Source of the DNA: Siphonodentalium dalli
Taxonomy: Eukaryota > Mollusca > Scaphopoda > Gadilida > Siphonodentaliidae
DNA: 64,000 nt
Direction of reading: 5' to 3'
NCBI GenBank assembly: GCA_032622095.1
Contig: CP136069.1
Coordinates: 124,949,450-125,013,449, forward strand
Below the pieces are notes generated by a model, which did not search any database, had not been told where the DNA came from, and worked only from the letters and a program-made list of their open reading frames with translations. Of the stretch, positions 39,872 to 64,000 are shown piece after piece (within the stretch, counting starts at the first letter, position 1; each line of letters begins with the position of its first letter). A program made the translations under genes and the position numbers.

Positions 39872-40168
39872 CGAACACGAGACATACATAATTTATAAAC
39901 TGTTAACAAAAGATATCAAATTCAATACATGACAAAGATGACTCAGTGGAGTTTATAAAGTGAACATAAAAACATTGAGGTAAGAATCTTTTTAAGGAAT
40001 GCAACTTTATTTAATGATAATAAACACATAAATTAAAATAACAAACATGAGACATACATAATTTATAAACTGTTAACAAAAGATATCAAACTCAATACAT
40101 GACAAAGATGACTCAGTGAAGTTTATAAAGTGAACATAAAAATATTAAGGTAAGAATCTTTTTAAGCA
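39872..40168 (+). repeat. Tandem repeat, period about 170 bp
   Basis: 'gagacatacataatttataaactgttaacaaaagatatcaaa' occurs at 39,879 and 40,049 with the same following sequence. B2 carries the same pair at about 50,097-50,386. Confidence 0.85.
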
Positions 40169-41420
40169 TTACCAAACCGTTTAGCACAGACTACAGTCCA
40201 CTTCACTCATCCGATCATCACCAAACTTCATATTTATCTTGATATTGATCTATCAGATGAGAGCTATCAAATATTTTTTTAATTTCATAGGAAAAAATGG
40301 TCGCCAGCGGCCATATTGCATTTACGTTATATGTTATCGCGTTATGTCGATATCTAGTATTACTTAGAAATTTCACCTTTCCAGATTCATAATTGCTCCA
40401 TTGACTGTAACAGATGAAATTATTCCCCTCTTCGGATAGAGTGTCACTGAAACTTTATTTTGTCAGACTGTCTGTATAATCACTGATTATATATGGCAAT
40501 AATCTGTAATAAGATGTAGCACTATTTTATTTTATATTTACACGCATGCTGTTTTTATACAACAATTCGAATCCCCCCTAGATCATCATGTGATCGACCA
40601 TACATCGCGCGAGGACCTGGTTGAATGAAGGGGGGTTTTATGGATCACTTCTGTCCTCAAGCTAGATTATACTTATGACATTTAATGGCATTTTTCCTAA
40701 CGTGGAGGGTTAGATATGCTTGAGAAACCACCACTCTTTAATTCACACCAAGTTCTCAGCTGTCATGAACCCATAGCCATGATATATGGTTTATTTTATG
40801 TATACTAGTAATATAGTTATTTTCAGTACCTTTATATACCAGTACTGTGTATAACAATGCATATAAATTAATCAATGTATACATGTATATTGATTCAACG
40901 GATTCAGTGGTTTTGTCCATCAGTCTATCAAATTTGCGGGGAAAACATGGCCACAAGCAGTACACCCTGCTAAATTTCGAATTTGAATCAATTGGCGCAC
41001 CCTGCAGCCAGCTTTTATTGGAGAACTTTTTCTCATGTGGATATTTTGGGTCACCGCTAGATGTGAGCCATATTTTGTTCTCAAACTGTCCTTGTGAAGA
41101 CATCACTGCCAGCGGTGATCTTCAATTTTACTATTTTTATGGCTAAATAATTTGGTTGATCCTACAGACGACACCCCTTGTCCGATCGTCACCATATTCC
41201 ACAATGATCTTCTGGATAACCAGCGTGAGAGTAATCTAATTTTCCCGAATTTCGTTAAAAAACATTACCACAGGCAGCAATTTGGTATCTTACTCTTTGA
41301 TCCTCTTTTGCATGACTGAATTGTTTAGCAACTGTACAGACATATCCCTCATCTGATAGTCACCAAACTTCATATTGATCTTCGGGCTGACAACTAGATG
41401 GGAGCTATCGAATGCTTTGA

Positions 41421-43360: not shown

Positions 43361-43429
43361 TTACGCCACCTAGTGTGGTGTTACTTGCATTTGGTTTTTT
43401 TATATCGCATGGAGTACAGGGCGAATGTA

Positions 43430-43910
43430 TTCTTGGAGATTGTTTGTACCTTACTCAATCGTACCGATATAATCACGTAGATGCCGAAATTGTAAAGTTA
43501 ACGCCAGCGGTGTATAATACGTTTATGAAAATATGATAAATCCTATCGATAGAGTCAGGACAGGCTCAAATTGTAAACTTAAAGTCACCGGTGTAATAAT
43601 ATGTTGTTGAAAATATAAATAATCTGATAGCCTGAAAATATTGTATAACCTATTGGGAGCCCATAATAAATGGGAATAACCTATTGGGAGCCCCTTCTGT
43701 ATTTTATGGAGATTGTTTGTACCTTACTGAATCGTACCGATATAATCACGTAGATGCCGAAGTTGTAAAGTTAACGCCACTGGTGTATAATATGTTTATG
43801 ATAAATCGTATCGATAGAGTGAGGACAGGCTCAAATTGTAAACTTAAAGTCGAAAATATAAATAATCTGATAGCCTGAAAACATTGTATAACCTGTTGGG
43901 AGCCCCCTGG
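43430..43910 (+). repeat. Direct repeat, two copies of about 0.2 kb
   Basis: 'gagattgtttgtaccttactcaatcgtaccgatataatcacgtagatgccgaaattgtaaagttaacgcca' recurs from about 43,708 with few changes, up to 'aataatctgatagcctgaaaa'. Confidence 0.8.
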
Positions 43911-44224
43911 TGTAGTGAACTGAATTATGGGTAATTTTACTTGGAGTGCGCATGTCTGTTTTTTTTGTAGTAACGGCCATCTTTTATTTTCTGCATGCGC
44001 AGTCTATATGCGTTCTTTTGGGGAAATTCGCTATTTTGGTTAAGTGAAACAATGGTATGAGTTCAATGTTTGTTTGTATATAAGAAAGTATATTGAATTT
44101 TGGAGGCCGACAATTGTATCTATTTGAAGATTAAAAGTTGCTTGTGTGTATTTAGCTGTGCATGGTTCGTTAATTAGGCCAGCCTATTGTCATATTAGAA
44201 CGTCTCCAATAACATACAACCTCT

Positions 44225-44312
44225 CTGCAGTTAACATTGTGAATTTGGCAACAGTCCAAGCAGGCCCTCTAATGGAGCACTGTGAATTTGGCAACAGTCC
44301 AAGACACGTGGG
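44225..44312 (+). repeat. Short direct repeat
   Basis: 'ttgtgaatttggcaacagtccaag' and 'ctgtgaatttggcaacagtccaag' lie about 45 bp apart, just before the palindrome. Confidence 0.75.
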
Positions 44313-44322
44313 GTATATATAG

Positions 44323-44464
44323 AATACACACGTAGTGTTTCTGAATACCAAATTTACACCACGAGTGGGATTGATGGTTTACCACACGAGCTTTAGCGAG
44401 TGTGGTAAATCATCAATCCCACGAGTGGTGTAAATTTGGTATTCAGAAACACTACGTGTGTATT
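44323..44464. repeat. 142-bp near-perfect palindrome
   Basis: Left arm 'aatacacacgtagtgtttctg...accacac' and right arm 'gtgtggtaaatc...cagaaacactacgtgtgtatt' pair over about 65 bp with a centre near 'gagctttagc'. It could extrude as a cruciform. No TIR transposon hallmark beyond the palindrome. Confidence 0.9.
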
Positions 44465-46010
44465 TTGTTTATACCATGACCGGTACAGGAGCAACAACTG
44501 CTATGAAATCGAAATAAACCCACTTAAATTAAGATGATTCTGTCGCACCATTCACAATCATCCCCGTTGTGTTCCCCACACTTGGCCGTACATCGACGTA
44601 CACTATCACAGCTGATCAGGCGTATTGATACATTGAATTAGGTCAACATTCAATTGTACGAATATGGTATCATTGTAGCCAATTCACAATAAACTGTAAT
44701 CATGATGAAACCGCCATAAATAAACAACATGAATATATATATGGGAATACGAATTTAATGAATATAAATATAACACATTGCGGGAACTTTTTTTTCTCCG
44801 CCGTACAGTGAACAGGAAACCACGAAAGTCATTTTGAAATCCACCGTTTGTTGTTCGAGTTTTTTACGTCTATTTCTTGAAATATATGTTCAATTTGTTG
44901 ATCTGGATGTGATTTCCACGGAAATAACTGTTCGTTTTTATCGCATTAGTGAGTATAATATTCAATTGAATCGAAAGTATCAAATTGTTTTCATCGCGAG
45001 GCGCTACATTTTAAAAATAGAGTGATTTTGATCGAGGTCATGGAAGGTTAATGAAAGGTCAACTCGGATGTAGTTCTACTATGGGTATAAACTTTAACCA
45101 TTGAAATGCCATTAAAACGTGTTACCCACAGTAGAAACGTGTTACCCACGGTCGGACTCCTGTTCACACACAGTAGGGTGTACAGCACAAATATATTATA
45201 TAGCATGTTTGTACACAGTACAATAGGGAGTCATGGTATAAAATAACTGAACACCTGTGGCCAACTTGATCTCCAGAATGTTTTTAAGTGGAAGGGACAG
45301 TGTAGTGGGGTGGGGGTGGAAGTTAGATTTTGAGTGTGTATGATTCACAACTTTTGTAAAAAAAAGTTAATGCACATGTAGTTGGAAATTTCATACATTA
45401 TTACACTACAACATAAAGGTTAAAATACATGGTTACCATTGCCTGGTATCCCAACTAGTAATTATTGTCCCCATTATGATGGGGACGGGGATCGAATGAT
45501 GGAGGTATTTTGAGGGGGTGGGAGTCACAACTGTTATAAAGAATTTTAACAGTTGGAAATTTCATACATGATTACACTAACTTTTTGTCCCCATTTATTT
45601 TACTGCTGTCTTGTTTGTTACTGTATTCCTGATATGGAAATAATAAAGAGCATTTATTACGCCACCTGTGGTGTATCTAGCTGCTGAGATTTTGATATTG
45701 CGTGGTGGACAGGGCGAATGCATTGTGGGGCTTTTATTTATAGAGTTGGAAATTCCGTTTATTTAAAAGTCGGAACTACGCGACCAGTAGCCCAAGTCCA
45801 GTAAAACGGTTCGTTATAGGTGCTGGTTGTTATTGTTATTTTAACGGAATTCTGAGTTGGTCATTCGCGAAACCAATATATTTTATATTCTATAATTAAA
45901 ACCGTGGGTATATAATATATGATCCTCTTTATGGATATTGTAGGAAGGTAAATTTAGCTAAAGCGGTGGGATATCTTGCAAGACAACACATTTCGGTTTG
46001 CGCTATAACT
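44465..46010. other. No gene recognised
   Basis: 45,660-46,000 holds fragments of the repeat family clustered at 14.9-16.8 kb ('aacggaattctgagttggt') and a fragment shared with 43,366 ('acgccacc..tgtggtgt'). Confidence 0.4.
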
Positions 46011-46694
46011 GCTCAATGTTTTAAGGTGTTACACAACGTCTGATAAAAAGAGTTCTATCGGGAATATTCACACTATTTTTTCAGAGAACATGCATAGAGT
46101 AAACATAGTCCTATCGGACTATCGTAAAGTAGTTCCGTTTAATTCGGGATTAATTAACCCTCAGACTGCCGAAACTGCCGACAATAAATTCGCTTGTTCG
46201 TGTCCGCCGAAAATCAAACTTGCCTGTTTAGAGGTCCCATTTTCGTGGCTAATGGTGATAGAATCACAATTTCAGTCAAATTCATGGATAAATTACATTA
46301 CACTTAATCGGCTTATGTCCGCGGCCATAAACCTGCGTTTTGATAACAATTTATTTGAGACAAACTGTTGCGCGGGTATCAGTCGGCGCTTATCGGTTGA
46401 AGTTATTATGATCGTGCAGCCTGCGCGTGCAACAAGTGTTCAAATACAACAGAAGAAACAAATACTATGTCAAATAAATAACGTCATCAATGGACAGACA
46501 AGTTTCATTTCCGCGGGACACGAAAAAGCGAATTTAATGTCGTCAGTTTCGGCAGTCTGAGGGGTTTAATTAATCTCCTTTACGATATCCCGATAGGACT
46601 ATATTTACACTATGTTCTCTGAAAAAAAATGGTGTGAATATTCCCGATAGAACTATTTTTATCAGACGTTTTGTAACACATTAAAACATTGAGC
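46011..46694. mobile_element. 684-bp MITE with long terminal inverted repeats (about 225 bp)
   Basis: It starts GCTCAATGTTTTAAGGTGTTAC and ends GTAACACATTAAAACATTGAGC. The arms match, with few changes, through 'gttctatcgggaatattcacac', 'cctatcgg', 'cagactgccgaaactg' and 'aaattcgctt..tcgtgtc'. A 156-codon frame spans most of it (46,090-46,560) but lies across both arms and has no domain. No transposase. Confidence 0.85.
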
Positions 46695-46989
46695 ATTTGG
46701 CGCAATTTTCTGGAATTTCGGACTATTTCGTCTATAAAAATACGATGAGCAACTGAAAATGTTTTTCAACATTCTGGAAGGGGTAGATGTCCAGGTATAT
46801 ATGTTTAAAATTTCACGCATAAACTATGACAGATAACAAAGTTATAATTAGTTTTATAGGCCCACCATAAATCCCCTATAATAAACGCATGCCCCCGTAA
46901 GCACATGGCTTTGCTGTGGATGCTTTCGTTCCCAGCATGCATCATTCTCGCTATCTGTAAAATGTCTATGAACAATGGCTGTGCCACGC

Positions 46990-47213
46990 ACTCTTAGCTT
47001 TGATCCGCATTTAGAAGCATTCTGGTGTGGCGAATGAGAAACCTGCAGTAATTTATAAGCCGTAGTTCATTGTAATAATTTGAAGAATTACTTATCTTAA
47101 CGGAATTCTGAGGCGGTCCATTCATGTAACCAATATATTTTATATTATGATTTATATTTATGGCTAATAATACGATCTTGGTGGCGTTACCATTTCTGAC
47201 TATGGTTTTCTTG
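46990..47213 (+). repeat. Dispersed repeat copy (family of 14.9-16.8 kb)
   Basis: 'tttgatccgcatttagaagcattctggtgtgg' through 'tttctgactatggttttcttgt' matches 16,625-16,830. Block B2 begins right after it. Confidence 0.7.
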
Positions 47214-50200
47214 TATTGTATAGCGCAGGAAATTCACTCATGATATGACCTCTCATAAGGATTTATGAAAATACATGTATGGTTCCATGAGGGTAAATTA
47301 AAATATGGTCACACCCAGAGAGGGTTAATTGAAATATGGTCCGATGAGGGTAAATTAAAATATCACATCACGGTTTTAAAAAATATGGTCCTATGAGGGT
47401 TAATTGATATATGGTCTAATGGGGGATAATAAAAAATATGGTCACATGATGGTTAATTAAAATTGTACCCTGATTCTTAATTAAAATATGGTCACATGAG
47501 GGTTAATAAAAATATGGACCCATGGGGGGGGGGGGGGGGTAATTGAAATATGGTCCCATTGTGAGGGTTAATTAAAATTCAAGTATGATGTCATCGGTGT
47601 TTATTAAACTACGGTCCCACTGGGGTGAAATACAATATAGTCCCATGAGGGTCAATTAAAAATGGTCCAATGAGGACTAATTATAATAAGCACAGGGCTC
47701 CCCCATGAGGATCAATTAAAACATGGTCCCAGAAGGGGGGGGGGGGGTAATTTCTGAACATTCTTCAATTCATATAGCATTCTTATATACCCCCAGTACA
47801 CATAAATAAAAATGTTGTTTATAATTAGGCCACATTGTATATTAAACAACCAATGTGAAGTGTTAGTGTTGGAACTTTTCTTATTAACATCTCTATGCAT
47901 AGCTCCGATATATTCCGCATACAAAGAAATGAAAAGTCAATATTTACAAACAGCACGAAGGAGTAACGTGGGAATTGGTTAATAAATACCATCCCAATTC
48001 ATTTGGAATATAACATGCCGATATTTGTCTCGTATAACTAAATGAAAAAGTTCACTAAAACGATATTAAATAACATTTTAAACACCGATATAAACACACA
48101 CCGTCTAGGATTCATGTTCGAATTAAAGTTCTTATACAATCATCAAATCCCCGTGCAGTATAATAGTAGATAGCATTCCGATTTAATTCCGATTTAATTC
48201 ACGCGAATTCCCGTTAGAATTAATCGGCTCGCACTTCTTGGCATGCTAATAACAAACCATGTGTCAATCATGCATGTCTCGAGAGACGCCCGCTGCATGA
48301 AATAATAATGTAAACGACAATAAACGAAATTGAAATTCCCAACTACACCTTTTACCGGACTCGGCCTCGGGGGGTCGCACTACAACTTTTAATGTGTCAT
48401 AAAAATCCCCATTTCTATAAATAAAACGCCCATGCGTCCTTTGAATACCAAGAAACAGTAGCTCTGATTATACACCCGGATGGCGAAATAGCGTTATTTA
48501 AGGTGCACACACCACTCCGGATCGGACAGCATATACTGCACCAACGACAACATGCCTGGACAAATGTTGTAATGTGCCGGGGAAGTCGGCATTTGGCATT
48601 CAGTGGTTTCGAATGAGACTTTTCAGCCTGACAATCTTGGTATCTGAGAGTGTGGCACGGTGGACCATGGGGCCACGGTGGATTATTGGCTTTAAAAAAA
48701 AATCAGTTTGGAGGATATCCCTATATATGATGTCATCGGTGGGCCCCTATGTGTTGGTATCTGGATTTATAAGTCGGCTCCGCGCGAAGTCGGCCCCATA
48801 TGAAGATGGCCCTGAGCACGAGGTGGGAGTTGAATGAAGACTTAATGCGGCTTAATTTGACTGAGTTCTGATTTATGTTAGAATACCCACAGGGGCCTGT
48901 AACGCGCTCCGCTGCCATCCCCATTTTGCACTGCCCATATATACGCAGCCTCTATACGCGCCTGCTTCACGTTTATGGTCCTTATTAACACCACCGGTGT
49001 ATGCTGTGCTTGAGATTTTAGAAAGCTGTGGGCGCTGACATTAACAGTGGGTGTTTTATTTATAGAATGGGAAATTTCGGTTTATTTAAAAGTCGAACTA
49101 CGCGACCAGGAGGCCGAGTCCGGTAAAAGGTGTAGTTGGGAATTTCAATTTCGTTTATTGTCCTTTACATTATTATGTCAATAATGTTGAGTTTTGGTTT
49201 GTGACAAGCTATGTCAATTACCAATAAAAAAATTTAAAAGATAATTTGTAAGTCTTATATTTCAACTTTTATATATATTTTTCGTTCTGCAGCCCACTGA
49301 TGGTTGTGGTCGGAGACGGCCGATTCGGCCGCCGTTTCGTTAATTAGGTGCTGTTTGTTATTTCGGCCAATTTGGCCGTTTACTTCATGTCTGTTTTTCA
49401 TCTGACGTGTGTGTCGAATAAATGATGTGGAGGATTTATGTAAATGTTAGCCCAAACTACATTTCCAAGTAACGATGGTTTTGTTGTTTATTTTGAGGAC
49501 TAATACCGCGTCAGATGAATTCAGCCCAAATATGTTAACAGTTGTCGTGTAAAACATTCGGCAGTAGGTTAGCGTTATTTAGTATTTGTGGATGTCCTTT
49601 AACATGGGGAAAATAGACTACTGCGCTTGAACGAGCATGTGAATTTGTCGTTTTTAATGTATAGCAACTTGATAATCAATAACAGAGGCATTCTCTGTCA
49701 AATATGGTCGCTCTATTTACGGTATTAATTGCGGAACTTTCTAAAGTAAACTACGCGTAAACGGATACATACGGTAAATTATAGAAGGTGCCGGAATCGG
49801 CCTAATCGCCCCAGGGCCAACTCGCCCCAGTCGACGTGTGTCAATTCGGTACCTACTATAACATGTACCCGAGGATGAGTCCGGCTCGGAATAAAATATG
49901 TATACGGGTGTTATATAGCGTTTTGTCCGTTGTTTCTCAATGAATATTATTGAAATTTGGTGTATATGTCCGGGCTGGGACATGGAATACAACAACGTTT
50001 GAATTGTTTTTAAATTTACAAATTTGTTGATTTTATTAAAAAAAAAATTCGTTCTGAAAACACACTATAAAGTGTATATAATATAATAACGAACACGAGA
50101 CATACATAATTTATAAACTGTTAACAAAAGATATCAAATTCAATACATGACAAAGATGACTCAGTGGAGTTTATAAAGTGAACATAAAAACATTGAGGTA

Positions 50201-51638
50201 AGAATCTTTTTAAGGAATGCAACTTTATTTAATGATAATAAACACATAAATTAAAATAACAAACATGAGACATACATAATTTATAAACTGTTAACAAAAG
50301 ATATCAAACTCAATACATGACAAAGATGACTCAGTGAAGTTTATAAAGTGAACATAAAAATATTAAGGTAAGAATCTTTTTAAGCATTACCAAACCGTTT
50401 AGCACAGACTACAGTCCACTTCACTCATCCGATCATCACCAAACTTCATATTTATCTTGATATTGATCTATCAGATGAGAGCTATCAAATATTTTTTTAA
50501 TTTCATAGGAAAAAATGGTCGCCAGCGGCCATATTGCATTTACGTTATATGTTATCGCGTTATGTCGATATCTAGTATTACTTAGAAATTTCACCTTTCC
50601 AGATTCATAATTGCTCCATTGACTGTAACAGATGAAATTATTCCCCTCTTCGGATAGAGTGTCACTGAAACTTTATTTTGTCAGACTGTCTGTATAATCA
50701 CTGATTATATATGGCAATAATCTGTAATAAGATGTAGCACTATTTTATTTTATATTTACACGCATGCTGTTTTTATACAACAATTCGAATCCCCCCTAGA
50801 TCATCATGTGATCGACCATACATCGCGCGAGGACCTGGTTGAATGAAGGGGGGTTTTATGGATCACTTCTGTCCTCAAGCTAGATTATACTTATGACATT
50901 TAATGGCATTTTTCCTAACGTGGAGGGTTAGATATGCTTGAGAAACCACCACTCTTTAATTCACACCAAGTTCTCAGCTGTCATGAACCCATAGCCATGA
51001 TATATGGTTTATTTTATGTATACTAGTAATATAGTTATTTTCAGTACCTTTATATACCAGTACTGTGTATAACAATGCATATAAATTAATCAATGTATAC
51101 ATGTATATTGATTCAACGGATTCAGTGGTTTTGTCCATCAGTCTATCAAATTTGCGGGGAAAACATGGCCACAAGCAGTACACCCTGCTAAATTTCGAAT
51201 TTGAATCAATTGGCGCACCCTGCAGCCAGCTTTTATTGGAGAACTTTTTCTCATGTGGATATTTTGGGTCACCGCTAGATGTGAGCCATATTTTGTTCTC
51301 AAACTGTCCTTGTGAAGACATCACTGCCAGCGGTGATCTTCAATTTTACTATTTTTATGGCTAAATAATTTGGTTGATCCTACAGACGACACCCCTTGTC
51401 CGATCGTCACCATATTCCACAATGATCTTCTGGATAACCAGCGTGAGAGTAATCTAATTTTCCCGAATTTCGTTAAAAAACATTACCACAGGCAGCAATT
51501 TGGTATCTTACTCTTTGATCCTCTTTTGCATGACTGAATTGTTTAGCAACTGTACAGACATATCCCTCATCTGATAGTCACCAAACTTCATATTGATCTT
51601 CGGGCTGACAACTAGATGGGAGCTATCGAATGCTTTGA
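47214..51638 (+). repeat. Segmental duplication block B, copy 2
   Basis: Second copy of 37,025-41,420, offset 10,189 bp at its start and about 10,228 bp near its end. It contains the minisatellite (47,275-47,750) and the 170-bp tandem repeat (about 50,090-50,386). Confidence 0.9.
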
Positions 51639-52956
51639 TTTTTTTTTTTGGAGGGGGGGGGGGGGGGGGTACCCAAACCGAAGAAAACAGTTTTTTTCCA
51701 CCCTGTGTCTGCAGTTTTTTCCGCCCCCCCCCCCCGGTCAGGATGGTGTTAATGGCCATGAAACGTCACCGGAGTGTATATTTGATGGTTCTAGATACAC
51801 AGGATGAAGTTACTTCGCATGATCACCTTCAAAATCGGTTGAATTTACCTCAATACAAACAACCAGTTTTGGCGGTGCAGATGAATGGGGTAGATGAAAT
51901 ACACGATGATGGTGTATATGAATCTAGACTTGGTGGTGTCGAGGAACGTCGTGATATACTAATACAAATGGCCATAATCGAAAGCTGTCATCTTCATCCA
52001 GTTCTCAAGACATAGCAGATGTACTAGATGTATCTGCGATCCGGCTCAATTATGGACATGGATGTCGTGTCTTATCAGAATTCTACACCACAGTAGCTAT
52101 TCCCGCCTGTCTAATATTAATGACGTGATGTCACTTGCCTAATAATGACCACTAATTTGGAGAACACGAAAAATATCTTTTCTTTTATATTCTGGTAAAT
52201 AAATTGAGAGAGAAAATTGTTCATTTGGATGGATACCAGATATATCATGTTTCGGAAAACCAAAAACCCATAATATACGTTAGTATTGGAATAGGTTCGA
52301 AATTGAAATAATGAAACAAGCAGAAAACCAAATTATATAATTGCCTCATAAGAAGTCATATTTGACCCCGACATTGAGACAATCTACAGGGGAATGCGTG
52401 GTACAATAGGTATATAGATATAATATTATTTCATGAAAAATGACCGGTTAATGCTCGATTAGATATGCATAATAAGCCACTCTAAACACCACAAGGATGT
52501 GTGATCTTAATGTAAATATAAACTCCACACTAAGATATTTTGGTCCCAAATTGGTAATGTTCCATGATAATGTATGTTTTGTGAATCAACTGAAGCTCTA
52601 GTCGAATGTCACATGGTATTCTTCTTAAAAATGATGCCTTAGCTACAATTAATAGACATATTGTATAATTAAAGCATGGTTATGACACTCCATTGCAGGG
52701 GCAATCAATTCGATTTAGGAGAGCGCACACATCTCAAACGAAAACTTAAAAGTGGAAAAGTGTCACAGCCAGAGGGGCCAGCGAGAAACCCATTTCCTGT
52801 GAGAAAATTTCACCGTGTCCATGCAGGAATGAAAAATATTTGCAGACATCAGGCGGGGATTAAACTTTCAGATATATATAAAGAATAAACACACGATAGG
52901 TATAATATCTATTGCCCTTCCTGTTTACCCCAACTCGTCGGAAAGAATGGTTATAT
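51639..52956 (+). repeat. Segmental duplication block A, copy 3 (truncated by the Polinton)
   Basis: It matches A2 from the poly-T/poly-G tract to 'gtcggaaagaatggttatat'. A1 and A2 then continue 'actctgcatttcgtg', whereas here unrelated sequence begins at 52,957. It carries the third identical copy of the 70-codon frame (52,676-52,888). Confidence 0.85.
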
Positions 52957-53518
52957 GCTGCATAACGGCTGGTTTGGGGGGTAAAGGTACATTATAGAAG
53001 TACATTGGAAGTATGGGTACATATTCTACTGCCCTATTGTCTTCCGACATCAAAGGAGATCAAAGGAAAGTACCCCGCCCCCGCACCGTATGACGTAACG
53101 ACGTTGTATGTAAACAAAGATCAAAGTACCACCGCCCCCGCACCGTATGACGTAACGACGTTGTATGTAAACAAAGATCAAAGTACCACCGCCCCCGCAC
53201 CGTATGACGTAGCGACGCGTGGGTGTTTGAGTATACGCGTGTGTGTATTTGTATACGTCACGGTTGTGTGGGGGGTCCTTCTGTATATGGATGTGTACTT
53301 CGTGGGTGTGGCTATTTGACAATGGTCGTATACGCTTTCGGGCCCTTGAGAACTGTACAATGGGCAATCGTATACTTCCGTCATCGAAGTACGTCGTGTA
53401 TACTGTTCATCAGGTACGAAGTATATTTGACAATGATGGTGTACCCCCGCGGGTGTATCCCTCAGGTGTGCTTATCAAGAATTAATAAGGATGATCCAAG
53501 TACCTCTGCGTTATAACC
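52957..53518. other. Presumed left terminal region of the Polinton
   Basis: About 560 bp between the host junction and the first gene, more GC-rich than the flanks, with the 57-bp tandem array and many GTATAC/CGTATAC words (around 53,229, 53,251, 53,328, 53,368). Polintons have long terminal inverted repeats, so this is where one is expected. Without the right end it cannot be proved. Confidence 0.55.
53066..53217 (+). repeat. Three tandem 57-bp units with CRE-like TGACGTAA
   Basis: The units start near 53,077, 53,134 and 53,191 ('gcccccgcaccgtatgacgta'). TGACGTAA occurs at 53,091-53,098 and 53,148-53,155, and TGACGTAG at 53,205-53,212. The octamer resembles the binding site of CREB/ATF factors. 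Position at the element end, ahead of the plus-strand gene block, would suit an enhancer; this is inference. Confidence 0.85.
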
Positions 53519-53755
53519 ATGGACAGTGATCATACTTCGGAAAAGTGGCAGTTAATGGGTCACAAAGTCCCCAGATCCGAAATAGTTTATTTCTGTCAAA
53601 TTATCATTCTGTACACCATCATAATCACGTCTATCGTCAATTTATCTATAGGACACGAGGCATCGACATTATGGACTAGTCTCCTTTCGTCATCGGCGGG
53701 GTATCTATTACCAGCTCCTTATATACGTAAAAGCGTCACATCTGCGGCGGTATAA
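53519..53755 (+). CDS. Small Polinton membrane protein
   Basis: A 78-residue protein with a short charged N-terminus (MDSDHTSEKWQLMGHKVPRS), one hydrophobic segment (YFCQIIILYTIIITSIVNLS, residues about 29-48) and a second hydrophobic stretch ending LWTSLLSSSAGYLLP. I recall this pattern (hydrophobic segment, then LWxSLLSSxxGYLLP) as a conserved small gene of animal Polintons; its function is unknown to me. The start gives the whole pattern and no upstream in-frame extension is evident. It is the first gene of the plus-strand block, 35 bp before the TBP-like gene. A membrane role in exit or entry is a guess. Confidence 0.75.
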   Translation: MDSDHTSEKWQLMGHKVPRSEIVYFCQIIILYTIIITSIVNLSIGHEASTLWTSLLSSSAGYLLPAPYIRKSVTSAAV

Positions 53756-53757
53756 AG
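53751..53757 (+). promoter_or_regulatory. TATA-like box before the TBP-like gene
   Basis: TATAAAG overlaps the last codons of the membrane-protein gene and lies 40 bp before the TBP-like start codon, a normal distance for a TATA box with a very short leader. Confidence 0.4.
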
Positions 53758-53790: not shown

Positions 53791-54306
53791 ATGATGGTAC
53801 GTATAACGAACATCGTGTGTTCCAGCCACTTAGGTTATGCTGTCAACATAGTTGGCTTAGCGGAGTCATTGTGTAATGTGATATATCAGAGAGGATTCAT
53901 AATGTGGAAGCACCGTTCCATAGGTGGTTGCTGTTGGATTTATAACACGGGAAAAATAATGTGTATGGGTGCAGCATCGCACGTCCAGGACGGTAGGAAT
54001 AGACTGAGAAAGTACGCCAGAATCATTCAAAAAATGGGTCATCATGTGCGATTGTCACAAGTGCGAATAGTGACAATGTCTGCGGTACACAAGTGCGGTA
54101 AATTATCAGCAGAGGCCATCGTGCGATACATGGACGGTAAATACCATCCGGAAATCTTTCCGGCAGTCACCTTCTATGAACGAGGCATCCACTTCGCTTG
54201 CCACATGAGCGGCACAGTGCTAATAACGGGCATTAAGAAACCGTGTCAGCTTAATAACATCGTGCATCCGAAAATATTGGAGTTGGAGTGCTGTTGCCAT
54301 GGATGA
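53791..54306 (+). CDS. TATA-binding-protein-like protein
   Basis: 171 residues, the size of a bare TBP core. Two TBP-like half repeats are visible. Half 1 has ITNIVCSSHLG (5-15), TGKIMCMGA (53-61) and KYARIIQKMG (74-83); half 2 has YHPEIFP (118-124) and SGTVLITGIKK (140-150). These align in order with the TBP signatures for the strand-turn 'GK+xxTGA', the 'KYARxxQKLG' helix and 'YEPELFPG...SGKVVLTGAK'. Of the four DNA-kinking phenylalanines of TBP, two look kept (F36, F123), one is Tyr (Y51) and one appears to be His (H138). Some DNA viruses carry TBP-like factors for their own promoters. It probably directs RNA polymerase II or a decoy complex to the element's genes (inference). Its stop overlaps the integrase start by 8 bp. 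An alternative start is Met2. Confidence 0.85.
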   Translation: MMVRITNIVCSSHLGYAVNIVGLAESLCNVIYQRGFIMWKHRSIGGCCWIYNTGKIMCMGAASHVQDGRNRLRKYARIIQKMGHHVRLSQVRIVTMSAVHKCGKLSAEAIVRYMDGKYHPEIFPAVTFYERGIHFACHMSGTVLITGIKKPCQLNNIVHPKILELECCCHG

Positions 54307-55372
54307 ATATCTGCAATCGTTATATTATGATCCGGGCAAGCCGGGGAGTTTCGGAGGAGTCGAAAAGCTGTACGAGGCTGTCAAAGCGGAGGGAACACGC
54401 TCTATAAGCCGCAAACAAATTCGTGAATGGTTAAGCTCGCAAGAAACTTACTCGCTGGTTAGACCAGCCAGGCGTAAATTCCCCAGGAGCAGAGTGATCG
54501 TCGAGGGAATCGATTCAATGTGGGATGCCGATTTGGCAGATATGACGGCTTCTGGTAGTCGTTACAAATATATTTTGGTTATTATCGACGTATTTTCAAG
54601 ATTCGCTTGGTGTCGCTCGTTGTTAAAGAAAGATGCCAAACACGTCGGTGAGGCATTCTCAGACGTGTTCGGAGCACAAAGCCGTAAACCGAAAATTCTA
54701 CGAACTGATAAGGGGACAGATTTTAACTCTAGACCCGTGCAAAGAATACTTAAAGAACGAGGAATCAAATACTTATCAACGGAGAACGAAACTAAAGCGA
54801 ACTACGCAGAGAGACTGATAAAGACTTTGAAAACCAAGATATACAGATACCTAGTTCACAACAACGTACTCGATTATTCCGAGGTTTTGCAGGCTGTGGT
54901 AAATAGCTACAATAATACTGTTCACAGATCCACCGGTTTCACACCCGTATCGGTTAGCACGGACAACGAATCGGAAGTGCGTTATGAACAGAAAAGACTT
55001 CTAGGGCATAAACAACCAAAGTTGAAAAAGTATAAGTTGAAAGTCGGCGACAGGGTGCGAATATCCCACGTTAAAGACGTGTATGACAGAGAATTCTACA
55101 AGAAGTGGACTGGTGAAATTTTCGCGATAGTTCGGCGATACAGAAGAGGTGGTGTCAACGTTTACAAGTTGTCTGATTGGAACGAAGAAGATGTGACAGG
55201 CTCATTTTATGAACAAGAATTACAGTTGGCGACGATCAACTCTGACACTTTATACAGAATAGAGAAAGTTCTAAGGAAAAACAGAGGGAAGGTACTCGTT
55301 AGGTGGCTTAATTGGGGGCCAAAATACGATTCTTGGATACCCGAAATTGACCTAGTTAAATACGGACAATGA
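54299..55372 (+). CDS. INT: Retroviral-type integrase with C-terminal chromodomain
   Basis: It joins element ends to host DNA and makes the target duplication. 357 residues: an N-terminal helical part (1-65); an rve catalytic core with D78 (in MWDADLADM), D137 (in LRTDKGTDF) and E171 (in NYAERLIKTLK), so the DDE triad is complete; an SH3-like segment (KLKVGDRVRISH, about 246-257, and KWTGEIFAI); and a chromodomain at the end (YRIEKVLRKNRGKVLVRWLNWG...DSWIP in part, about 319-357). A chromodomain on Polinton integrases could steer insertion to marked histones. It overlaps the TBP-like gene by 8 bp and the next gene by 4 bp (ATGA), so the plus-strand block is tightly packed. No disruption is seen; the enzyme looks functional. 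Confidence 0.95.
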   Translation: MDEYLQSLYYDPGKPGSFGGVEKLYEAVKAEGTRSISRKQIREWLSSQETYSLVRPARRKFPRSRVIVEGIDSMWDADLADMTASGSRYKYILVIIDVFSRFAWCRSLLKKDAKHVGEAFSDVFGAQSRKPKILRTDKGTDFNSRPVQRILKERGIKYLSTENETKANYAERLIKTLKTKIYRYLVHNNVLDYSEVLQAVVNSYNNTVHRSTGFTPVSVSTDNESEVRYEQKRLLGHKQPKLKKYKLKVGDRVRISHVKDVYDREFYKKWTGEIFAIVRRYRRGGVNVYKLSDWNEEDVTGSFYEQELQLATINSDTLYRIEKVLRKNRGKVLVRWLNWGPKYDSWIPEIDLVKYGQ

Positions 55373-55758
55373 GGCTATATATTTCCAGTGATAAATATCA
55401 AGTATATTTTCCAGACAATGAGGCCGGTGATTTTACTTTACCTCTACCATCGAACTTGCATTTGAATAGCGAATGGACCGTCACCTTGGAACAAATATCT
55501 ATGAAACCAAAACCACATAACAGAATAATTTACGTATGCTGCGATATTTGTCAAGATTCTAGACTGCCAACACACTCATTGCAGGTCCTAAGGGCTATAT
55601 ACGAGGATGTCGCGGGAGATTTCACCGGAGGTATCCCAATCCCTGTCGCAGGAGGACCTTCAAACTTTATAAGGATCTATCTGCTGGATGAGAATTTGAG
55701 AAGAATAGAAATTGATTCATTGGATTGTTGCTTGTTACTCAGCGATGGTCGGGACTAG
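55369..55758 (+). CDS. Minor capsid (penton-like) protein
   Basis: 129 residues. The N-terminus has the pattern of Polinton minor capsid proteins: F-P-x(4)-GDFTLPLPSNLHLNSEWTVT followed by LEQI, then IIYVCCDICQDS and a late LRRIEIDSLDC. In Polintons this single jelly-roll protein is thought to form the pentons at capsid vertices. 129 residues is at the short end of what I recall for the family, and the last strands may be reduced. The ATG overlaps the integrase stop (ATGA, 4 bp), and the end overlaps the basic-protein start by 14 bp. Placement directly upstream of the major capsid gene supports the call; an alternative is an unrelated small structural protein. Confidence 0.7.
   Translation: MRLYISSDKYQVYFPDNEAGDFTLPLPSNLHLNSEWTVTLEQISMKPKPHNRIIYVCCDICQDSRLPTHSLQVLRAIYEDVAGDFTGGIPIPVAGGPSNFIRIYLLDENLRRIEIDSLDCCLLLSDGRD
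55667..55674 (+). promoter_or_regulatory. TTATAAGG box upstream of the basic-protein gene
   Basis: TTATAAGG, 70 bp before the start codon at 55,745 and inside the minor capsid gene. It belongs to a set of such boxes in this element (55,961; 58,107; 58,788). Confidence 0.35.
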
Positions 55759-56032
55759 ATATTATTACGATACGGTGCACAGAGTGTATCTGCCGATGGT
55801 GTCCAGCAAAAAGGGTGTGACAAAAGTGAAACCTAATCTTCGGAAAAGTAAGGTCACTAAGAAGAAAATAAAACCTAAAAAAGGTGGAAAAATGAACAAA
55901 TCTCTGAAGCGCGAAAAAAAAAACCACAACCAACCAGGGCGGTTCATGAAGAAGTCAAAAGTTATAAGGGGAAACAGACCCCCGGATGTTTTTGATAAAA
56001 ATGGAAAAGCTACCCATATTCGGAGAAGTTGA
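55745..56032 (+). CDS. Lysine-rich basic core-like protein
   Basis: 95 residues from MVGTRYYYD. About a third are Lys or Arg (22 K, 9 R), with stretches VTKKKIKPKKGGK and SLKREKKNHN, and a tyrosine-rich start. The composition is that of a DNA-condensing virion core protein, like the small basic pX/mu protein of adenoviruses and its proposed counterparts in adintoviruses. A homology claim would need a search. An in-frame ATG at 55,712 lies deep inside the minor capsid gene and gives an atypical hydrophobic start, so 55,745 is preferred. The end overlaps the major capsid frame by 47 bp. Confidence 0.6.
   Translation: MVGTRYYYDTVHRVYLPMVSSKKGVTKVKPNLRKSKVTKKKIKPKKGGKMNKSLKREKKNHNQPGRFMKKSKVIRGNRPPDVFDKNGKATHIRRS
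55961..55968 (+). promoter_or_regulatory. TTATAAGG box before the major capsid gene
   Basis: TTATAAGGGG ends 17 bp before the ATG at 55,986 and 32 bp before the second in-frame ATG at 56,001. If it is a TATA element, transcription starting about 30 bp downstream would favour the 56,001 start. Confidence 0.4.
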
Positions 56033-57221
56033 AGAAGACTGGCACGCGCATAAAGAATGGATGGAGTTCAACCCCACAACAGCCATTACAGAAAACTCGC
56101 CCATAGAATTTTATATACCAGGGACATCTAATGATTATGTCGATTTAAGAAGCAGTACTCTCAGTGTCAAAATCAAAATAGTTAATGATGACGGAACGGC
56201 ATTGGCTTCAGCATCGAAAGTCGGTCCTATTAATATGCCTCTTTCGTCCATATTTAGTTCCGTCAATATGGAATTACAGCATACACCCGTTGGATCCCTA
56301 GGTCCTTATTATCCGTATAAGGCATATCTCGACACGTTACTGGAGTCAACAGAGACGCAACTACGCCATACCTTTTCCGAACGGATATTTGAAAAGGACA
56401 GAGCAGAACATATGGATTCAACTATACTAAATTTGGGCCTAATAACGAGAAAAGAGTATTTCGAGGACAACGCTATCGTGTCAATGTCAGGACCGATCAG
56501 CCATGACTTGTGTCAACAGGGACGCTACATGTTGAATGGAGTTCCAGTCAAAATAACATTATGGCCTGGTAAAAATGACTTTTGTTTAATGAGTGCTGAC
56601 ACTACTCCCAAATACAAAATGAAGATAACCGAAGCTAAATTTAAAGCGTGTTTCGTCAAAATAGAAAATGGGACTGATGTGGAAAGAAAACTCACTACAA
56701 AAGACGCTATCTACCCGTACAGAAAGTCGGTCATTAAAGCTTTCTCTGTTTCCAAAGGGGCATTCAACTTCACAGCGACTAATGTGTTCCAGAATGATGT
56801 TCCACAAAGGGTTCTTATAGTAATTACAGAGGCTGAGGCGTTGAATGGCAGCTACACCAAGAATCCGTTCAATTTTAAACATTATAATTGCAGTCATCTG
56901 GCATTTACGGTGGATGGTCAATCTGTACCTAGTCGACCCCTAAATATGAACTTTAAAAAGGACGACTATATGGAAGCATACCACAACTTGACAAGTGCCT
57001 TCCCCCACTTATCTATCAATAGAGAATCTTATAAAGAAGGTTTCACCATATTCTGCATCGAGCCTTACGGAGAAAATGTTGCGTCTGTCAATAAAGGATT
57101 AGTGCAACTAGACATGAGGTTCAGTGAAGCTCTGCCAGAAACTGCAGTCATCTTAGTTTACGGAACTTTTCCAGCACATTTGACGGTCGATAAAGACAGA
57201 AATGTATTTCTTCCAATGTAA
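55986..57221 (+). CDS. MCP: Major capsid protein (double jelly roll)
   Basis: 411 residues, matching the Polinton major capsid family, often listed in invertebrate genomes as 'F54H12.2-like'. Signatures are NPTTAITENSPIEFYIPGTS (about 30-49) and DYVDLRSSTLSVKIKIVNDDGT (about 51-72) near the start, PYYPYKAYLDTLL in the middle, and PFNFKHYNCSHLAFTVDGQ toward the second domain, with a C-terminal GLVQLDMRF...ILVYGTF strand pair. It forms trimeric hexon-like capsomers in the predicted icosahedral virion. The frame is complete with no stops. Met6 (56,001) is an alternative start that avoids part of the overlap with the basic protein. The last gene of the plus block; a poly-A signal follows 47 bp after the stop. 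Confidence 0.93.
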   Translation: MFLIKMEKLPIFGEVEEDWHAHKEWMEFNPTTAITENSPIEFYIPGTSNDYVDLRSSTLSVKIKIVNDDGTALASASKVGPINMPLSSIFSSVNMELQHTPVGSLGPYYPYKAYLDTLLESTETQLRHTFSERIFEKDRAEHMDSTILNLGLITRKEYFEDNAIVSMSGPISHDLCQQGRYMLNGVPVKITLWPGKNDFCLMSADTTPKYKMKITEAKFKACFVKIENGTDVERKLTTKDAIYPYRKSVIKAFSVSKGAFNFTATNVFQNDVPQRVLIVITEAEALNGSYTKNPFNFKHYNCSHLAFTVDGQSVPSRPLNMNFKKDDYMEAYHNLTSAFPHLSINRESYKEGFTIFCIEPYGENVASVNKGLVQLDMRFSEALPETAVILVYGTFPAHLTVDKDRNVFLPM

Positions 57222-58106: not shown

Positions 58107-58114
58107 CCTTATAA
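58107..58114 (-). promoter_or_regulatory. TTATAAGG box touching the 102-aa gene start
   Basis: On the minus strand TTATAAGG is followed directly by ATG. So close to the start codon, it would work as a TATA box only for a downstream start, or it may act in translation or be a remnant. Confidence 0.3.
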
Positions 58115-58759
58115 TTTTTTGTATATGATGGGATATTCTCCGGGAAAAATGTCAGTTCTCACACGGAGTTCTTGTTCCGTATTAGGAGTTGTGTCAACAA
58201 CTAAATAACCGTACTGTCTGTCCAAAACTGCATCCTTATAACTATCACTCAGAAAATGAGATTTTCCTGGAAAGAGTTGCTGTCCCAAATATTTCACCTG
58301 ATTGGCATCTCGAACGTTCTTCAAAAGAATGAGATATGAACTGTTCAAAGCTATAGTTCTAGCGTGACGTCCTTTCTGAAATTGGTTTTGAGTTAAAAAT
58401 AAAGTTGTTAGGCGACGATGGTGACAGCCTTGCGTAAACAAACATTCCATTTCTGAACTGTCTAGCACCTTATGGGCTAGATCATCCAGAATAATCATAG
58501 AGGGTGTCCCGTCTGCAAACACATCCAAGGTTTCTACCATAGGTAGCCCTTTGTGAAAAGTTATATTCGGAATAACTCGCTCCATTTCGTGGAACAGCCG
58601 TTGATCGACACCGTAACAATACAAAATTTTCTGAGGGTATTCTCCCGAAATCATTTGTTGTAAATTTTGCAAGAATCGAAATGTCCATCGCGTTTTTCCA
58701 GATTTGGTGGCACCGGACACCATGTAGCTAGAATCCGGTTCAAAAGGTATTAGTGACAT
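58109..58759 (-). CDS. Genome-packaging ATPase (FtsK/HerA type)
   Basis: It pumps the element's DNA into capsids using ATP. 216 residues, typical of Polinton and virophage packaging ATPases. Walker A is GATKSGKT (16-23); Walker B is SMIILDDL (87-94) with the acidic pair D92-D93; a polar motif TTLFLTQNQF (118-127) follows, and RHARTIALNSSYLILLKN carries a likely arginine finger. The N-terminus (MSLIPFEPDSSYMVSG) lacks extra domains. Intronless, unlike the polymerase upstream on the same strand. The frame is intact. The gene start at 58,759 fits because Walker A comes 16 residues in, as usual. Confidence 0.92.
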   Translation of the reverse strand: MSLIPFEPDSSYMVSGATKSGKTRWTFRFLQNLQQMISGEYPQKILYCYGVDQRLFHEMERVIPNITFHKGLPMVETLDVFADGTPSMIILDDLAHKVLDSSEMECLFTQGCHHRRLTTLFLTQNQFQKGRHARTIALNSSYLILLKNVRDANQVKYLGQQLFPGKSHFLSDSYKDAVLDRQYGYLVVDTTPNTEQELRVRTDIFPGEYPIIYKKL

Positions 58760-58829: not shown

Positions 58830-60602
58830 TTAAAAACCGAAGGGTAATGTGTCAAGGTTTTCTTGTAAAACACGTTTCGTATACACGATGCTGTACTCCT
58901 TGTCCTGTTTCTGATTATATAGTAAGGGCCTGCGGCGACTTCTATTGATTTTATTTTCAGTGATGTACACTTTGCAGTGGTCGTTTAGATCATTCTCAGC
59001 CTTCCTTTTTCTGTTAATCAAAGTGTCCATCACCGAAAAGTTTATCTTCGTCGCGTTCACGTGGTTCAGAGTAAACCCTCTGACCTTACACACTTCCTTG
59101 TTGTTAGTGGTCTGATAGGCATAGTTTTTAGGACCACCACTCCGGAATTTTGTTATGGAATGTCCATCGAGCTCGTCCGTCAGATCACCGAGGTAGTCAC
59201 CAGTCTGAACGGTAGGGCCTCCCGGTCTTTCCACGTAGATGACAGAATCTGCAATGTAAGCATATAATATAAGCTTCGACATAGCCACAATGTATTTAGC
59301 GTTAACATAAGCTTCGACATAACCACAATGTATTTAGCGTTAACCTTCGTCGCCCCGTGATGTACTTAATTGATTACTCACCAGTGTCAAAGTAAAGAAC
59401 GTTTTCTCCAAGGTGTTCCAGAACGTCGTACAATTTGAGACGAGCCCAAGCAGTCGTTAGACTCGCTATAAATACGTTCGTCTTGTCATCAGAGGGAATG
59501 AAGTGTCGGTCGTATACGTATGACAGCTGAATGTGGGTGTCGTTGATGATGTGAAAGTCTTTCACGTGTTTTGTGGAGTCCGAAATCAAACTGAAAAACT
59601 TTTCTGGCTCACTGTCGTGTATGATATCACTTTGAGACATGTTCAACCTCTCTCCGAATTTTCCCCTGAAATATGAAACATAAAATATAATATCACATCA
59701 TTTTTTTTAAAATTTTATTTTTCTCGTTTTTTTATATACGAAAACTTACTTACCAAAGGACATTTAGCATCATTTTTGAAGTGGCTCTTAGTGCGGGTGC
59801 TTTCCTTACGCTGGCAGGATCCAGCTGTATACCTTCCACACTAGCGTAGTCCGCTACGTAACGCTCCTTGTCACTTTCGGTTTCGACCCAAGCTGGCCAA
59901 CCACTCGCTTCCTGTTTCAACTTTAAGAACCTGTAATGAGAAATAATGAATAATATTGTGATAATGTATGAGCCCCCCGCTAACCCGAACCTAATAAAAC
60001 CCTCGTACAAAAAAAGGGAGGGAGGGGGGCGCGCGCGCGCTTTTTGGTTTAATTTTTTTTTTAAAACTAACCTATTGACGTATCCGGAGAAGAGACCTCC
60101 ACTTTTGCTTTCTTTGTCGTATTGGGTGGTTTCTTCCCAGTTGTATACTTCATATATTTTCACCACAGCGTATCCTTTGTCGAGAGCTTTGACTATTTCG
60201 CATGTGGTCCAACAGCCAGTGAGTGAACGATCTGTGTCATCGTGCTTACAAACAGTCTGTAACCTTTCATCCACACAACTCCGACACAAAGGGAACGTGA
60301 GCTTGCCACCTGAACGGTACGGTAATACACCGTGGTACAGTCCACGAGGAGGCAACACTTTCACCGACGCTAGCCCGAAATATTCACGAATATCGCTGAA
60401 GTCACTGGTGATGATTTGAGGATGTTTGGAAACCATCTTGGCTGTCTTATTGATAAAGGGGTATAATGATGTAAAGTCAACATATTTCACCTTCTCCCCC
60501 GGCTGCACATCATACGCCAATTTGCAGGCGTTAGTTCTACCTGAAATAATTTTATTTGAATTTTATTTTGAATTTATTTTGAATTATTTTGAATAATTTA
60601 AA

Positions 60603-60633
<31 letters not shown>

Positions 60634-63600
60634 TTTTGGAGACAAATTATACTCACAACTTATATATTTCCTACTTGAAAACATATCTTTTTAATTGTTT
60701 TTGAATTATTTTGAATTAATTTTGAATTAATTGAATTAATTTTGAATTATTTTTTATTTTGATAAAAATGTGAAAATTCATACTCACCACCGAAAAATGA
60801 GTCACGTGGCTTCAGACGCGGTTGTACGTCCAGGCTCTCCACATAATCCCTCACATCAATGTCATCTTTCAATAGCTTGTCAAACGTGTGTTCCCAGATG
60901 CATACGTACTTGAACCCTGCTTCTTTCAAGAAATTTCGCTTCTTTATAGTTAAAGCGTGCAATTCACTCAGGGACTGTTTAGTGAGTGGATGTTTCGTGG
61001 TGTCACGGTTCAGAGGATGGCACGTAGGGCACGCGTGATAAAAGCAACCTAAAAATAGAAAGGAGTGAATATGTATTCGTGTAAAACCAAAAAATGTTGT
61101 GTGACAACAAAAATAAATGAAATAAATATACATACCGTGGAATTCAAAGCAAGTGTTGGTGTTGTGACAGAATCCATCCACTTTGTATCGACTGTTTGGT
61201 ATCTTGTACTCTCCATTGTGCAGAGCGTGATCTATTTCCAAGCCTTTTTTGTGTGACAGCCAGCATAGCCATTGAATTGATTTTTGGGAATACTGGTCAG
61301 ATTCACGATCTGAATCCACTTTAGCTATGGGTGTGCTGACAAACTTCCCTTCAGATATCTTCATCCCACGAGCATTCAGGAAAGCTTTAGTAACCCACGC
61401 ACCGTCATACAGTATGCTGCACACACCATTTACTTTCTTCATGGGTACATCTTTCAACACCGTAGCGTCTTTCTTTTCGATGGATATTTTATATGTTTCC
61501 TCCAAGAACAACGTTTTATAGGCGTTCATACATGCCGAGCTTATGGTAACAGACTTGAAAGGATCGACTGCACCTTCAGTCACCTCCATGAATAACGCTC
61601 GAAATTTTAAACAAGCCTGTCTGAGAATGTCCACATCGGAGATGCAATAAGCACGAATTTCTTTTCTAAAATTGAAAATTTCTTCAGATTTTCCAGCGTG
61701 CCATTGCAGGAATTTTTCTCTCTCCGAAGGTGACATCGTATCTGGGCCATAATACGCGGCATCGGGGTAGCGTCCCACATAATCTTGGTTGGCTGCGGTG
61801 TTGAAAAAGTGGCAAAAATACCCTGCAAAATAAATTAGACATATACATACGGCGTAAATATGAAAAATATCTTACAACAAAACCCACCTTTATGTAACTT
61901 ACGCAAATCAAAGGATTTCGAGAGTGTGGTCAGTAGCATAGACAATAAGTTGAAGCTGCGCAGCACTCAGAATTCCGAAATGGGGTTTTAAATACATTAT
62001 TTTGGACCTTGAATTTATTTCCCCCCTATAAATATGAAACATATCTTACACCAAAACTCACCTTTATGCAACTCACGCAAATCAAAGGCTTTCGGGAGTG
62101 CAGCCAGTCGCATCGCCAAGAAGTTGAAGCTGTCCATCACCCGAATTCCGAAATGGGTTTTTAAATACATTATTTTGGATCCTGAATACAGGATCCTCGT
62201 TGGTCGTACACCTTGGAACACCAAATATTCGAGCAGCAGGATGGAATCGTACGCCTTGCCATTATGGCTCATGACTGTGTAATACTTGTGAGCGTCCGTA
62301 AACAACCAAAGTCCAAATGTATTCAATGTATGCGTTCCACTGGCTATAAACTGGCGACGTCCGCATCCGTCACAAGGTGCATTCTTGAAAGAACCTTGCT
62401 TGTTCCTGGCATCACAAGCGTTACAACGACTTCCACAATTAGCACATTGCGAATCGGCATCCACAGGTTCCTTGGAACAGGACTCACAGGCCGAATGTGC
62501 GACAACCAGATTAGGGGTGTGTCTATTTAACCCGCACTGTGGAAGCTTGCAGTCTATACATCTGCAATGAAAATCGAAGTGATACATAAATGCCTAATAA
62601 CGTTAATGTCACTTAATACATTATAATGCGCCTGAAGAATCATCAATGATAAACACAACGCCATTCCATAGTTGTTTCCTAAAAAAATGTTAAAAAAAAA
62701 CAACCTTACCTGCGACATTTTGAACATCTTTCATCTTCTGAACAAGTATCCCGGCACGGTGGACCCCTTTTGTAGCCTGTGTCACATTGGAAAAGTTCAT
62801 TCTGCGTGCACTCGAAATCAAAGAATATAAATTTGTGGTCGCTGGGTGTAGGTCGTACACAGGGTCTCAAATAACACAGATGTTGTCCCGTCACCAATTC
62901 GCCGCATGAAGAACACATCCATTCACCGCAAATATGTGGATGTTTTTCCATATTTCGTTTGATGATGTTTATAACTTTTTTACAGGTGATACATTTGTGG
63001 TAAGTATCACATTGTGAATTGCCATTTTGAGGAGTCATTCGATGTCTGTTGAAACACTCGAGACCGCGGCATGTAATGTGGCATTTTTTGCATGACAGTT
63101 CATCAGCCACTTTGCAACCTGCGGTCTTACAATTTATGCAATAGTCATCGCAAGAATGATCCTCTCTGTTATTGTAAGGCTTTAGACAGGTTTCACAGAA
63201 ATAACTTTGACGAAAGAATCCGCAGATAGATACAATAGGGGTGAAATGAGTTTGTTCTTGATAATACACGTAAATATTCCTTTCATACTTGTTGCTGCTT
63301 CTCACTATTTTATTTCCAACTTCCGCACTAATTAGTACCAGATTAATATTGAAATACTCTTCAAAAAGTGGAATGTCACTCAAATCACCGGGCCTATTTG
63401 TTGGTATATTCAGTTCTCTCAAAACTCGGTAGGTGGTGGTTCGTTGAGTACTTCTTTCTGACTTTGTCAGCTCCTTGTAGTTGCAACGTGTGATTTTGTG
63501 ATGTTCTAAAAAAATGTCAGCCGCACTTTGATGAGGATATTGAAGTTTTAAATCCTCATCTGCTATAAATAGTTTAGCTGCGGCTATCACTATGGATCTC

Positions 63601-64000
63601 GCCAAACAGGTGTTGTCCTTGTTCTTTATATAGACCATAGATTTTTTCTTTAGAACATCATTATCACATAGTATGGGTCGCGTGCCACCCCCTGAGCCTC
63701 TCGGTTTACGTATAGATCCTACTGTAACGTTAAATGTTCTATCCAACGATAAACTTTCTTGAGAACTCAGGACGTTGGCTACACGATCCATAACCATCGT
63801 GGGAGTGAGATGTTTCCACTCTGTTAGTTCTACCACGATGGGTCTGTTCAGTTGAACCGTTTGTATAACAACCCGGCCGAGATCTTCATCATCCCTATCG
63901 CCTCTGGCTTTATACAGCACATCTGCGAACATTCGTTCCAACTCCTCCCGTAAGTCTGAAAGTCTCTCAGTATACCACCGCTCATTAAAGGTCACATCGT
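58830..64000 (-). CDS. POLB: Family-B DNA polymerase of the Polinton, eight exons, 5' end outside the window
   Basis: It replicates the element, presumably with protein priming. Exons on the minus strand: 64,000-62,710; 62,561-62,062; 61,822-61,136; 61,048-60,788; 60,540-60,072; 59,930-59,754; 59,665-59,382; 59,248-58,830. They join in frame to about 1,361 codons. Exon 1 holds an N-terminal part with KNKDNTCLARSIV and a later THFTPI (resembling the Cys and His boxes of OTU peptidases), a Cys/His-rich zinc region, and Exo I (FFDFECTQ). Exon 2 has Exo II (HNGKAYDS), exon 3 Exo III (YCISDVDIL). Motif A is DFTSLYP in exon 5, motif B RATSKMMLNVLW spans exons 6-7, and motif C (YFDTDS) is split by the last intron. 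The C-terminus ends DTLPFGF, as I recall for the family. All catalytic residues are present. Confidence 0.93.
61868..62013 (-). pseudogene. Decaying tandem duplicate of the polymerase exon 2 end
   Basis: Within intron 2, this 146-bp stretch repeats the sequence of 62,045-62,190 (end of exon 2 with its splice donor), including 'aaatcaaag.atttcg', 'aagttgaagctg', 'attccgaaatgggttttaaatacattattttgga'. It has accumulated substitutions and small indels, and the donor GGTGAG has become GGTGGG. It is not needed in the joined gene. Confidence 0.75.

Follow-up and report, generated by a model that had tools for sequence, protein, structure and literature searches.

The 64,000-nucleotide stretch of the Siphonodentalium dalli genome analysed here (contig CP136069.1, positions 124,949,450 to 125,013,449), referred to as the window, holds the greater part of a complete Polinton, with a gene for a TATA-binding protein (TBP) near one end and one for a tandem PC4/Sub1 coactivator at the other. 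The element measures 18,739 bp (~18.7 kb; C9:125002405 to 125021143), starts at position 52956 of the window and ends 7.7 kb beyond the window end. Both ends are flanked by the 6-bp sequence GTTATA, a target-site duplication whose left copy was located at 52950..52955 and whose right copy lies outside the window (L140:1695-1700, C9:125021144-125021149). The terminal inverted repeats are 488 bp and 431 bp long; the left repeat (52956..53443, + strand) holds three direct repeats with a 57-nt spacing, and in its alignment with the inverted right end (L140:1264-1694) 423 of 488 columns are identical, with 8 mismatches and 57 gap positions in 4 openings. Within 35275-52956, host repeats (5.7 and 1.6 kb) occur in duplicate, ~99% identical, and provide natural empty sites: the copies near 36345 and 42728 are uninterrupted, and the copy at 52956 is broken by the element. 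The left end, the GTTATA duplication, the right end and the two uninterrupted host-repeat sites bear out the assignment of the TBP gene to the element, which had been made in an earlier note on this DNA.

On the + strand the element opens with a small 78-aa protein gene (53519..53755), putatively of membrane type by its hydrophobic stretch and without a match in the Pfam search, followed by the TBP gene (53791..54306) and the integrase gene (54299..55372; Pfam rve core 7.2e-13, with a weak chromodomain match, Chromo 0.0014, under cut-off). As had been described, the TBP and integrase frames overlap by 8 bp. The next frame (55369..55758) has no above-cut-off Pfam match and is a candidate for the penton-type minor capsid protein. 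A Lys-rich 95-aa frame (55745..56032), also without a Pfam match, precedes the major capsid protein gene (55986..57221), whose likely start is M6 at 56001. The homologue search with this protein returned 60 homologues at E <= 0.001, the best (2.1e-87) being an F54H12.2-like protein of the bivalve Mercenaria mercenaria; proteins of this type are taken here as the Polinton major capsid protein. Two small frames follow, and then, on the - strand, a P-loop frame (58109..58759; AAA_14 0.019, under cut-off), assumed by analogy to be the packaging ATPase, and a DNA polymerase B (PolB) region in pieces (59750..62587). The DNA_pol_B_2 matches of the latter (3e-9, 2e-7 and 1.8e-5, the last under cut-off) stand in profile order. 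Six candidate GT-AG introns were read in this region (59600-62800), with borders set by eye and exons not joined; such introns would point to nuclear transcription and splicing. The neighbouring frames at 58830-59640 and 62706-63998, for which Pfam gives no PolB match, are probably part of PolB. Past the window end the same element carries a BIR+RING (IAP-like) gene (L139:733-1368, Pfam BIR 2e-17), for which a role against apoptosis is possible, and the tandem PC4 gene (Pfam 1.9e-16). The element is identified as a Polinton by a retroviral-type integrase, PolB and a capsid protein together in one element, by the long inverted repeats at its termini and by the 6-bp target duplication. No adenovirus-type protease was identified among the window-element frames searched with Pfam, and the frames of the 18.7 kb element show no RNA polymerase gene.

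The TBP gene is one uninterrupted ATG frame of 171 codons, in which the motifs quoted in the earlier note were found in TBP order. It matches the Pfam TBP profile (PF00352) over two stretches at 7.6e-17 (61.4 bits, curated cut-off 22.9), human TBP was matched by sequence in the PDB at 1.1e-10, and the predicted fold is a two-lobed TBP saddle along the full length of the protein. Both its sequence and its predicted saddle are thus those of a TBP, as had been proposed. Identity to human TBP and TLP is 27-28% (28% to human TBP), and the protein has no N-terminal extension, a trait shared with TLP. When the host genome was searched in six frames with this protein, 150 of 433 candidates were scored and all 150 matched at E <= 1, some of them partially; 141 are free of stops over the matched part and 9 contain stops. 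A chance frame that merely resembles TBP is refuted by these matches, together with the profile and PDB scores and the predicted saddle. Among the matches listed, identities to the window protein are 92-100% (8 matches), 53-65, 46-47 and 41-42%. With a second query, P0062, 150 of 415 candidates were scored, one with a stop, and 147 of the 150 listed matches resemble a second family, family F, by identity and match position.

Using four window proteins, 52 loci were examined. TBP is followed by the integrase on the same strand in 28 of them, corresponding to 27 distinct places with the window copy included, which supplies the orthologues at the same locus to which the earlier note had looked; in some, among them L088, L104, L105, L110 and L119, the integrase is incomplete or broken up. 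The 78-aa gene stands 5' of TBP in 25 of these 28 loci and the penton candidate after the integrase in 26. The remaining loci comprise L117 with TBP alone, 22 family-F loci without an adjoining integrase, and one host TBP exon. In one family-F copy a tandem PC4 gene (9.3e-15) is followed 11 nt later by TBP (2.4e-32), and the other strand carries a capsid protein, a penton candidate and a C5-protease candidate (Peptidase_C5 6e-4; 20.0 bits, just under the cut-off of 21.3). A second copy has an integrase (7e-15) and an ATPase candidate further on, with PolB-like frames on the opposite side. Family F is another Polinton arrangement.

Several arrangements of other kinds were noticed among the copies. 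Seven oppositely oriented TBP pairs lie 5.9-11.4 kb apart (e.g. C3:112391282/112402712, C3:293380832/293386717 and C7:20590264/20596193), as if shorter derivative elements had long terminal repeats with TBP inside. L135 (C2:85769000-85778900) holds three PC4-TBP units with a 2.77-kb spacing, apparently a tandem array, and one TBP match (C8:189091157-189091615) falls inside an open frame of 16,011 aa, perhaps a stop-free repeat array.

Judged from the copies, the TBP gene is conserved across several Polinton groups of the host genome, and constraint is evident in most informative copy pairs among the 19 pairs analysed (four rows were dropped). Values of pN/pS were 0.31 for L081/L086, 0.27 for L081/L087 (Fisher p 0.006), 0.32 for L081/L088 (p 0.005), 0.31 for L111/L112 (p 0.0003), 0.25 for L099/L128 (p 0.001) and 0.33 for L099/L129, and dN/dS was 0.21 for L109/L111. 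Between groups pN/pS was 0.27-0.55, with synonymous sites saturated. Counting against constraint, the mean over 231 family-F pairs was 0.50, and some close pairs gave no sign of it: L109/L110 (~1.0 on five changes), L090/L119 (about 0.65) and L099/L123 (five nonsynonymous and zero synonymous changes). Drift is to be expected in copies that are very young.

In a phylogenetic tree the Polinton TBPs, family F among them, group with P0062 in a single clade (100/99) that lies next to four cellular eukaryotic proteins (93/81) rather than within them; the tree has long branches, includes a single TLP sequence and contains no viral TBP. In the earlier note such a tree had been expected to show capture or old ancestry; by this tree either may apply, since the AU test rejects no joining of the clade with human TLP (p 0.308), human TBP (p 0.089) or both (p 0.285). 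The same values are what a passenger reading has in its favour, in which the gene would be copied from TBP or TRF2 of the host and have no function for the element. Against it, the likeness to human TBP is 92% for the host TBP exon, but 33-34% for the best element copies in the same search and 28% for the window protein, and the single clade, the conserved place of the gene in several groups and the constraint also speak against it; we regard the passenger reading as very improbable.

Fourteen proteins, 13 from the host genome and P0062, were compared at the residues that contact DNA and TFIIB, with numbering and contact roles (kinking Phe, TFIIB contacts) assumed to be those of yeast TBP. The earlier note had reported two of the four DNA-kinking Phe as changed, to Tyr and probably to His; both substitutions were found (F116 to Tyr, F207 to His), but the count is three, since F99 is also lost with a shortened stirrup, and only F190 is kept. 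Because three of its four kinking Phe are lost, the window protein may bend DNA weakly. Among the 14 proteins F99 is kept in three of family F and replaced by Met in P0062, and in the other ten it has gone and the stirrup is shortened; at position 116 ten have Tyr and four Phe, at 207 nine have His, two Tyr and three Phe, and F190 is kept in 13. The three family-F proteins have all four kinking Phe and the window protein one, so that the latter is an eroded form within a family that elsewhere retains the full set. N159 is Thr and V161 is Ser in 14/14, and Glu188 is likewise kept in 14/14; of the TFIIB-contact stirrup (E186, E188, L189) the window protein has His at 186, the retained E188 and Ile at 189. 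The face that meets TFIIB is therefore better kept than the face that meets DNA. In the integrase-adjacent groups the kinking residues are eroded, yet Glu188 and the basic character of residue 138 are retained, as would suit a decoy for host shut-off that mimics the TFIIB- and TFIIA-binding faces, binds DNA poorly and diverts these factors or dampens defence transcription. Family F, of the same clade, retains all four Phe, however, and the pairing with PC4 described below suggests a positive role in transcription, and we consider a decoy unlikely.

PC4 stands directly 5' of TBP in all 22 family-F loci, three of them with frame breaks; in L106, L107 and L117 it likewise lies on the 5' side of TBP. 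Pairing was further assessed by comparing 150 listed TBP with 150 listed PC4 places, the family-F PC4 being too distant in sequence for the PC4 list. Among the matches listed, 34 of the 150 PC4 places lie 5-20 kb downstream of a TBP on the same strand, against a chance expectation of 0.08; these are 7 of the 10 places of the window's own PC4 class, 27 of the 34 of a second class and 0 of the 106 of other classes. For none of these 106 listed places does the TBP list show an entry within 25 kb; 86 of the 106 form facing pairs within 10.5 kb. PC4 is accordingly also present in elements without TBP and, by these positions, seems not to be tied to it. The facing pairs (e.g. C1:103678521/103687328 and C2:29960605/29965678) possibly belong to a further class of elements whose terminal repeats contain PC4. 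Binding of single-stranded DNA is a property of PC4 proteins, which, with the place of the window-class TBP gene near the left terminus and its overlap with the integrase gene, would fit a DNA-bending factor that serves replication, packaging or integration, for example by binding the terminal repeats, and not transcription. The family-F gene has no adjoining integrase and the contacts kept are those associated with general transcription factors, both of which count against such a factor and make it improbable.

A TATAAAG box (53751..53757, + strand) lies 40 nt before the TBP start codon. Of 21 distinct upstream sequences outside family F, 20 have TATAA 35-44 nt ahead of the TBP frame; in the case of L107, which has no ATG there, the distance is counted from the frame start. 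In family F, where TBP directly follows PC4, TATAA was found in 0 of 6. The element TTATAAGGGG (55962..55971, + strand) lies 38 nt before the likely start of the capsid protein. In the window element and two family-F copies, TATAAG occurs 8 times ahead of 23 gene starts (0.9 expected; 0 of 500 simulations reach 8), an enrichment we regard as a lead, the motif having been noticed before testing. TATAAGG was present within 120 nt of the capsid start in 7 of 14 loci and absent in 7, a count that leaves out two family-F loci and whose positives include same-group pairs. The TTATAAGG element before the capsid and ATPase genes is possibly a core promoter unlike the host TATA box.

We infer that the element TBP brings transcription machinery to the element's own promoters, a role supported indirectly by the tandem PC4 gene and the kept TFIIB-contact residue. 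As part of the explanation of the locus as a complete Polinton, we lean towards the view that TBP and PC4 together drive the element promoters via host factors. The TBP gene would be made early, from an ordinary TATA promoter and with host TBP. Its product would act through the kept lobe-2 stirrup (Glu188), the lobe-1 helix and PC4, and a pre-initiation complex would form, with Pol II and TFIIB/TFIIA of the host, on promoters of the element that have a core unlike the host TATA box, possibly TTATAAGG before the capsid and ATPase genes. More tentatively, and with clearly less confidence, we suggest that in this lineage of Polintons a TBP of an old lineage outside cellular TBP/TRF2 and a tandem PC4 make up a promoter-selection module. 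The module would recognise TTATAAGG as a late core promoter of non-host type and so redirect the Pol II of the host.

For small DNA elements, TBP is usually seen as a fixed part of the host. If true, the proposed role would mean a self-encoded basal transcription factor in a transposon-sized element without its own RNA polymerase. With TBP and PC4 genes of its own, this virus-like element of 18.7 kb offers a direct handle on Polinton expression and on a possible early-to-late switch of the viral kind, and more than 100 copies with natural variation at the DNA-contact residues (from four kinking Phe down to one) form a series for the evolution of TBP specificity.

The integrase, PolB, capsid protein, 6-bp target duplication and terminal inverted repeats are common to the window element, animal Polintons/Mavericks and adintoviruses. 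In the literature searched on these elements, a partial search and not proof of absence from print, no TBP or tandem PC4 is described, and a TBP homologue with PC4 as a regular Polinton gene is new here. With cellular TBP and TLP/TRF2 the window protein shares the Pfam TBP match and the predicted saddle, but it differs from them in being the product of a mobile-element gene, in its 27-28% identity, in N159T and V161S (14/14), in lacking three of the four kinking Phe and in its own clade (100/99). Loss of key Phe is likewise described for the TBP of Giardia, with a reported preference for single-stranded DNA (PMC12209930, in the part available); that protein, however, is cellular.

TBPs are already known from mirusviruses, WSSV, many large viruses (by fold) and algal mobile elements. 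Viral fold matches (BFVD) to the window protein were from Heterosigma akashiwo virus, EsV-1-53 and the B263R homologue of Abalone asfa-like virus. The available portions of two reports give TBP in 59% of mirusvirus genomes and the gene cluster concerned in 0% of Nucleocytoviricota (PMC10132985, PMC12768974); the former describes RNA polymerase genes in a 431-kb mirusvirus genome, whereas none was seen in the Polinton, which measures 18.7 kb. The WSSV TBP is stated to branch near NCLDV with weak support (PMC4506587, excerpt). Nuclear mobile elements that sporadically carry TBP genes, as here, are reported from a green alga, but with a putative mirusvirus origin (PMC10675990, excerpt). The best working analogy is KSHV ORF24, a TBP mimic that takes host Pol II to late promoters (PMC12529657). 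The proposed logic is the same, but the Polinton would work through a true TBP homologue; ORF24, as presented in the available text, has a further C-terminal domain on DNA and a model incompatible with direct TFIIB binding, whereas the Polinton protein keeps a TFIIB-contact residue.
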